Source of the DNA: Blastocatellia bacterium
Lineage (GTDB): Bacteria; Acidobacteriota; Blastocatellia; HR10; J050
Direction of reading: 5' to 3'
NCBI GenBank assembly: GCA_025054955.1
Contig: JANWZE010000061.1
Span: 1-38,911, forward strand
Length of the DNA stretch: 38,911 nucleotides
Shown here: positions 28,470 through 29,932 of the stretch, one piece after another
Layout of the letters: each line of letters begins with the position of its first letter
Numbering within the stretch: the stretch's first letter is position 1
The notes under the pieces: model-generated
What the model was told of the DNA's origin: nothing
Database searches by the model: none
Seen by the model: only the letters and a program-made list of their open reading frames with translations
Position numbers and translations under genes: made by a program

Positions 28470-29549
28470 CTAACGTGCCTTCGCAGTATATTCTTTGAAG
28501 CCGTTTCCACTGAACGACATCAACGGCTGCCACTGACCGGACGCATTCTTCTGCCAGAGCTGACCTGTGTATTGAGCTGTCTGCTCGTAGATGATCGGCT
28601 CAGGCAGCGGGAACGGCAGTCGCCCTCGAAGCGGATGAGTGTTGATCGCCCGTATCGTCAGCGCCACACGGATGGCCTCATTTTCTGCTCGAAATGTCGT
28701 CTCGATAGGATATTGCTTGCGATTGATCGCATCATACGCCCAACGAGTGTGAGTCAGTTCATACTCCTTTTTTGTGAAGATGTTCCTCTGGCCTTGCACG
28801 TCAACGCTGGCAACGCCAACCGGCTGGCCGATGAAATCGCCAATCTCAAGCGCCAACCCCGGCTCAGAATATTGTGCCCAGTTCCACAAAGCATTGGTGA
28901 AGTTCCACTCTCCCCAATTATGGTCGTGGTAGCCAGGAGCGCGAATTTGATACACCTGACCATCCAGTTCAATCTGACCGGTGACGTCGGCCCGAGGCAT
29001 GTAAATAAGCCAGCTCATCTGTTCCCACGGAAACCGCCCAACGTTCATTCGATTGGCTGCATACCAGGGGGCACTCTGCGAGATGTAAAGCAGGTCCCAT
29101 TTGAGCCGAGCGTCGCGGCTGGCCCCAACGATGCGATATGAACCGCCATCAATCACGCGAATCGTGTTCGCCTCGATTTGCACATCGGCCTTCTCATACG
29201 ACGCCGTAAACTGCTCAGGCCGATATATGTCAACTTTGCTGACAACCCCTTGTGATGTATAGACCACGCCAACAACCTGCACGAGGCTCGGCCCCGGCCG
29301 CTTTTCCGGATTCGCGACGAAATAGGCGAAGATGCCTTGCAGGTCTTGTATCGTGTCGTAGAAGTTAAAATACCACCACTCGATATAACGATTGTCGTGT
29401 TTCCCATCAGCGAATTCTCGGTAATGGTAAGCGTCATCAGCGAGCGATACATCCTGGGCCGGCGCGAAGAATGCAGGTTCTACGGCACGGCCAAATGATA
29501 AAACCATCAGGACCGATAGTAGCAGGAGCTTCATTCCGATTTTGTGCAT
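28470..29549 (-). CDS. Secreted CrtC/AttH-like (lipocalin-like) protein
   Basis: A 359-residue protein with an N-terminal signal peptide (MKLLLLSVLMVLSFGRA). The hallmark EWWYFNFYD at about residue 57 and GYHDHNWGEWN near the middle, plus WNWAQYSEPGLALEIGDFIG, match the hydroxyneurosporene-synthase-like/AttH family, which has two lipocalin-like barrels. Family members hydrate or otherwise modify terpenoid or fatty substrates, but many are uncharacterised, so no reaction is assigned. The GAGGGAAC site before ATG 29549 and the first codons are duplicated 70 bp upstream. It is the last gene on the minus strand after the tRNA-His. Confidence 0.75.
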   Translation of the reverse strand: MHKIGMKLLLLSVLMVLSFGRAVEPAFFAPAQDVSLADDAYHYREFADGKHDNRYIEWWYFNFYDTIQDLQGIFAYFVANPEKRPGPSLVQVVGVVYTSQGVVSKVDIYRPEQFTASYEKADVQIEANTIRVIDGGSYRIVGASRDARLKWDLLYISQSAPWYAANRMNVGRFPWEQMSWLIYMPRADVTGQIELDGQVYQIRAPGYHDHNWGEWNFTNALWNWAQYSEPGLALEIGDFIGQPVGVASVDVQGQRNIFTKKEYELTHTRWAYDAINRKQYPIETTFRAENEAIRVALTIRAINTHPLRGRLPFPLPEPIIYEQTAQYTGQLWQKNASGQWQPLMSFSGNGFKEYTAKAR

Positions 29550-29840: not shown

Positions 29841-29917
29841 TGGTACTGGCTCCCGGACTTGAACCGGGGACCTCCTGATCCACAGTCAGGCGCTCTGACC
29901 AACTGAGCTAAGCCAGC
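29841..29917 (-). tRNA. tRNA-His (GUG), non-canonical acceptor end
   Basis: A complete 77-nt cloverleaf including encoded CCA (29843-29841). Stems are acceptor 29917-29911 with 29851-29845, anticodon CCTGA/TCAGG and T-stem CCCGG/CCGGG. The anticodon loop CTGTGGA has GTG at 29883-29881, which is His. T8, A14, GG in the D-loop and TTCAAGT in the T-loop are standard. Bacterial tRNA-His normally carries a templated G-1 opposite C73. Here position -1 is T, the first pair is G1.U72 and the discriminator is A73. Bases -3 to -1 (GGT) can pair with 73-75 (ACC), extending the precursor stem. Similar A73 tRNA-His without G-1 is known from a clade of Alphaproteobacteria. A promoter lies just upstream. 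Confidence 0.93.
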
Positions 29918-29932
29918 ACCGAATCGCCGCAT

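Follow-up and report, generated by a model that had tools for sequence, protein, structure and literature searches.

Templated G-1 opposite C73 is regarded as a near-universal feature of tRNA-His (PMC9976931). The window, by which we mean the whole stretch of 38,911 nucleotides of Blastocatellia DNA analysed here, contains a tRNA-His gene with U-1 and A73 instead. This raises the question of how such a tRNA is recognised by its HisRS, and of how the system came to be in an acidobacterium. As judged from sequence comparison, it is highly probable (about 0.88) that the ancestor of the window's family exchanged its own histidylation system for a Caulobacter-type pair acquired by horizontal transfer, and that the tRNA-His follows Caulobacter-type rules.

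The tRNA-His gene and its 5' end

The features of the locus on which the argument rests are the following.

29841..29917, minus strand: tRNA-His, anticodon GUG (29883-29881), encoded CCA (ARAGORN; RF00005, 72.3 bits; tRNA census)
29917, minus strand: G1, acceptor base 1, forming a G1.U72 pair, without templated G-1 (sequence)
29844..29845, minus strand: U72 (29845) and A73 (29844), histidine identity elements in Caulobacter crescentus according to PMC9976931 and PMC7590224 (sequence)
29918..29920, minus strand: leader GGU, positions -3 to -1, able to pair with A73-C75; a leader type common among the tRNAs of the genome
27723..28376, plus strand: nth (endonuclease III), which also adjoins the A73 tRNA-His in both family mates

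ARAGORN, run over the whole window, detected no other tRNA gene. Read with its leader, the tRNA-His is ggu-GCUGGCUUAGCUCAGUUGGUCAGAGCGCCUGACUGUGGAUCAGGAGGUCCCCGGUUCAAGUCCGGGAGCCAGU-A-CCA, with U at position -1 (29918), CCA at 29843-29841 and all 7 pairs of the acceptor stem formed. ARAGORN and direct reading of the sequence agreed exactly with the preliminary description of this DNA, which had claimed T at -1, a G1.U72 pair, A73 and a GUG anticodon. The acceptor end was identical in the other two genomes of the family (G119 and G120), and this conservation, together with the score of 72 bits against Rfam RF00005, ruled out a chance match or a pseudogene. A consensus scan found no sigma-70-like promoter just upstream of the gene, which says little in Acidobacteriota. 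At minimum free energy the precursor did not fold into a cloverleaf; such outcomes are common for unmodified tRNA sequences. A stretch of about 38 bases, tagcaggagcttcattccgattttgtgcatgttccctc, is present twice between 29500 and 29630 (at about 29520 and about 29590), around the start of a minus-strand open reading frame at 28470-29549.

It had been suggested that the leader pairs with A73-C75, giving a stem that RNase P must resolve. The pairing is possible on paper, but the notion of a special problem for RNase P was rejected: positions -2 and -1 are GU in 18 of the 44 other tRNA genes of the genome, 3 of which have GGU, and because so many of its tRNAs carry the same leader, unusual handling by RNase P is not expected. 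RNase P would make an ordinary 5' end at G1, with no G-1 present or added. Alternatively, the mature tRNA could retain an extra 5' nucleotide, so that U-1 paired with A73 replaces G-1:C73. U occupies -1 in 41 of 47 unique A73 tRNA-His genes, with G in a few, and is enriched relative to the other tRNAs of the same loci (89/180; Fisher p 2e-6, kinship ignored). However, U is already the commonest base at -1 among the tRNAs of the genome (24/44), several A73 tRNA-His genes have A, C or G at this position, and Wang et al., in 2007, reportedly saw no additional nucleotide in either Sinorhizobium or Caulobacter. We consider retention of U-1 very improbable, and continue with an ordinary 5' end at G1 as the predicted form.

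One tRNA-His and one HisRS in the genome

The genome (G000; 4.69 Mb in 152 contigs, reported as 99.5% complete with 0.31% contamination) gave 45 tRNA-like matches, which upon typing of the matches and their neighbours with ARAGORN resolved into one tRNA-His and 44 other tRNA genes. One match is a gene truncated at a contig end, by appearance a tRNA-Lys. We found no second CAY-reading tRNA among the typed genes, and neither the tRNA census nor a C73 pattern search of this draft assembly revealed a C73 tRNA-His. Since the gene in the window is the sole CAY reader found, it must be expressed; the preliminary description had allowed that it might not be transcribed. tRNA-Trp, tRNA-Ile and tRNA-Ala(UGC) were not recognised in the assembly, which therefore has gaps. 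A second tRNA-His within a gap is conceivable, though the family mates show none by pattern.

The genome codes for a single full-length HisRS (L031:1384-2814, minus strand, contig C30; 389 bits against TIGR00442, cut-off 287), on a contig of 123 kb; the tRNA-His contig is 39 kb long. The motif-2 loop of this enzyme is KPDPGR, in place of the RPQKGR seen in the order's canonical enzymes. The motif-2 Gln is said to contact G-1:C73 and is Gly in the alphaproteobacterial clade (PMC3937112); it is Asp in the enzyme of the window genome, and Gly, Ala or Asp across the clade of enzymes found with A73 tRNAs (the A73 clade), in which motif 2 is K-P-[D/G/A] as against mostly R-P-[Q/A] in C73 enzymes. 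Thg1 (PF04446) was detected neither in this genome nor in 19 of 20 other A73 genomes; in the control for this search 1 of 14 control genomes, that of the archaeon Methanosarcina, was positive. A canonical G-1/C73 tRNA-His, ordinary C73-reading residues in motif 2 and a Thg1-like protein had been named beforehand as the things to look for, and the genome was found to have none of the three. The only Thg1-family gene among 21 A73-system genomes (L324; G167:C318:1161-1493) is in the Planctomycetota genome of L136, the tRNA-His of which has A-1 and A73.

The identity elements reported for Caulobacter are A73, U72 and the anticodon (review PMC9976931), and those reported for Consotaella HisRS are G1:U72 with A73 rather than GUG (PMC7590224). 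The tRNA-His of the window has all of them, and we propose that a HisRS with an altered motif-2 loop would recognise G1.U72, A73 and the GUG anticodon. The first two are not sufficient as a histidine identity signal: both tRNA-Glu(CUC) genes of the genome (G000:C84; L012:1501-1577 and L013:1501-1577) carry G1.U72 and A73, as do the matching tRNA-Glu ends of several class mates with canonical tRNA-His. Because of these tRNA-Glu(CUC) genes, HisRS must exclude tRNA-Glu by the anticodon or by other features.

The closest known counterpart is the system of the Alphaproteobacteria (Rhizobiales, Rhodobacterales and Caulobacterales, for example Caulobacter crescentus), which shares G1.U72, A73, the lack of a templated G-1, the HisRS clade and the replacement of the motif-2 Gln (KPGPGR in the alphaproteobacterial enzymes). 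In contrast, the host belongs to a different phylum, and its HisRS is 42-46% identical to the alphaproteobacterial enzymes. Eukaryotic cytosolic tRNA-His has A73 as well, but eukaryotes add G-1 with Thg1 (PMC9976931), for which the window genome has no detected gene. The canonical tRNA-His and HisRS of sister families in the same order have the same anticodon, task and single copy, but differ in G-1, G1:C72, C73 and the RPQKGR loop. Thus, the preliminary suggestion of a further lineage with changed histidylation rules, should the host not be an alphaproteobacterium, is supported at the level of sequence for an acidobacterium. It had been framed as a choice between a further lineage and an overlooked case; a further lineage is what we find, but not an isolated one, as it appears to be one branch of a HisRS/tRNA-His pair present in several phyla.

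Distribution in Acidobacteriota and origin of the pair

In a sample of 119 Acidobacteriota genomes, tRNA-His genes ending in UACCA were found in five (G000, G065, G068, G028 and G040), and the same five are those with a full-length HisRS 51-100% identical to that of the window genome. The next best full-length matches in this sample are about 38-45% identical, and nearly all of the other genomes have a C73 tRNA-His match. All three genomes of the window's family have the A73 tRNA-His, and the A73-type HisRSs of the two family mates are 81% identical to that of the window genome; the sister families f58 and f59 of the same order have C73 tRNA-His and, in the genomes checked, a HisRS about 30% identical. 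Over 396 Acidobacteriota genomes the distribution is patchy, with U72/A73 tRNA-His in 16 genomes of 8 families. Pattern matches with a 14-base gap, mostly tRNA-Leu(GAG) arms, were discarded, and an A73 match in G016 was rejected as not being a full tRNA. Two loci (L073 in G105 and L118 in G024) are phage-like arrays in which 11-12 tRNA genes of mixed type include an unusual tRNA-His (G-1 with A73 in L073).

Contamination or mis-binning could in principle have placed a tRNA-His or HisRS contig from another organism in a draft genome of 152 contigs. A likely instance is seen in the same class: in G134, a 3.6-kb, probably foreign contig carries an A73 tRNA-His while a canonical HisRS is encoded elsewhere, and this tRNA-His was set aside for this reason. 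The contigs considered here, however, are long, and the reported contamination is low. Moreover, both family mates have the same tRNA-His by nth together with the closely similar HisRS, and none of the three genomes yielded a canonical pair. That the nth neighbour is common to the family mates argues against contamination, which we regard as scarcely credible.

We then compared 69 HisRSs in a tree (IQ-TREE, LG+C20+F+G4) rooted on the canonical enzymes; it includes no eukaryotic HisRS and is silent on the proposed eukaryotic origin. The A73 HisRSs form one clade (support 99/98) within a broader group, the rest of which goes with C73 tRNAs. The clade has 46 rows, 45 labelled A73 and one with a C1:G72/A73 variant; L134 was labelled A73 although no tRNA-His was found in its own genome. 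Acidobacteriota, Zixibacteria, Planctomycetota, Hydrogenedentota, Neomarinimicrobiota and Coatesbacteria are all represented, and the Alphaproteobacteria, with UACCA in 9 of 9 genomes checked, are one nested twig. The HisRS of the window genome joins its own family (100/99); G068 comes next (99/93), followed by a MAG titled Bacteroidetes (95/93). The A73 HisRSs of Acidobacteriota are in three places, and a single clade of them was rejected (p-AU 0.00014), as was a clade of all non-alphaproteobacterial A73 HisRSs excluding the Alphaproteobacteria (p-AU 5e-7); both groupings were picked after the tree had been seen, which somewhat weakens the tests. The group nearest the A73 clade (for example other Acidobacteriota; PDB 6nhi and 3net) belongs to the same broad subfamily, with about 38-45% identity in Acidobacteriota, but its acidobacterial members differ in having mostly RP[Q/A][K/R]GR in motif 2 and C73 tRNA-His.

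These results bear on vertical inheritance, in which the native tRNA-His would have lost G-1/C73 and its own HisRS would have adapted in place, convergently with the Alphaproteobacteria. Some C73 tRNA-His genes from the same class, that of G128 for example, share the anticodon arm and variable loop of the tRNA (CCTGACTGTGGATCAGGAGGTC), and therefore the tRNA body alone cannot separate a native from a foreign gene. The HisRS, in contrast, nests inside the A73 clade, and is 51-66% identical to the A73-type enzymes of other acidobacterial lineages as against about 30% to those of its own order. The genomic context is also different: the A73 gene adjoins nth, but in sister family f59 the neighbour of the canonical gene is one for an MBL-fold protein and, in G122, also a purH-like gene. 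Vertical inheritance appears very unlikely.

Under the preferred reading of horizontal transfer, the tree suggests that the canonical system was replaced at the base of the window's family. The source would be the HisRS clade spread over several phyla, members of which often have tRNA-His and hisS side by side and of which the Alphaproteobacteria are one derived branch. An incoming pair would avoid a stage with a tRNA charged by neither enzyme. We infer joint transfer of tRNA-His and hisS from the relatives, the two genes being non-adjacent, on different contigs, in the window's family. One other A73 genome, G028, carries a 3'-half fossil of a C73 tRNA-His (L278; G028:C19:11628-11668), not called as a gene by ARAGORN; it could be a decayed native gene or the remnant of an integration site.

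Tandem tRNA-His/hisS pairs in other phyla

A scan of GTDB genomes with an alignment of five HisRSs, in which phylum labels are the depositors' record titles, found loci besides those of Alphaproteobacteria in Bacteroidetes, Zixibacteria, Acidobacteria, Planctomycetota, Hydrogenedentota, Neomarinimicrobiota, Coatesbacteria, Nitrospiraceae and Patescibacteria. The HisRS titled Nitrospiraceae branches among Hydrogenedentota, and the Nitrospiraceae and Bacteroidetes titles may be wrong. In about 17 non-alphaproteobacterial genomes, tRNA-His precedes hisS on the same strand by 9-287 nt (G068, G065, G028, G040/L132, L126, L127, L128, L129, L133, L136, L139, L144, L146 and L150, with three or four further Acidobacteriota loci, one of which is probably the L128 genome again). 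The phyla with this arrangement include Acidobacteriota, Zixibacteria, Planctomycetota, Neomarinimicrobiota, Coatesbacteria and others. In G068, which has the nearest acidobacterial HisRS beyond the family itself, the two genes are 144 nt apart. The tandem order is thus found in many non-alphaproteobacterial relatives, whereas the genes are apart in most Alphaproteobacteria seen, L173 being tandem; in L125 they are adjacent but divergent. The tandem is a predicted ready-made orthogonal pair.

Altered histidylation chemistry is already known; what is new, on this evidence, is its predicted occurrence in the phylum Acidobacteriota and several others. A literature search returned no report of the A73 system in Acidobacteria or Planctomycetes, nor of its spread and tandem order; the primary alphaproteobacterial papers were outside the search, and priority is uncertain. 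It is likely, if less firmly so than transfer into the window's family, that the A73 system is not an alphaproteobacterial invention but an old, horizontally spreading pair, often in tandem, which took the place of the canonical system on several occasions, in six or more phyla other than Proteobacteria; the Alphaproteobacteria would be one derived recipient. The origin of the alphaproteobacterial system would then become a question again. Should the scattered pair prove to charge as predicted, it would show a route by which an identity rule is altered with no lethal stage on the way: an orthogonal tRNA would arrive along with its synthetase, and loss of the previous pair would follow, as the C73 fossil of G028 suggests. 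Dozens of diverse natural HisRS/tRNA-His pairs would also be at hand; they may be orthogonal to the E. coli pair and of use in genetic code engineering.

Apart from L134, the non-alphaproteobacterial genomes looked up all had U72 and A73 in tRNA-His with the exception of four loci. In the patescibacterial L180, the best tRNA-His candidate is a G-1/C73 gene. Two loci of Candidatus Buchananbacteria (L165:5419-5495 and L171:5399-5475) have a tRNA-His with C-1 and C73, lacking a templated G-1. The gene lies immediately downstream of hisS, whose product has RPQAGR and is placed beside the A73 clade, outside it. Finally, in L164 (3197-3271), from a Planctomycetaceae MAG, a tRNA-His with C1:G72 and A73 is found in tandem, upstream of the gene for an A73-clade HisRS whose motif 2 has one additional residue (REKKPGPGR), and is a putative further variant of the histidylation rules.
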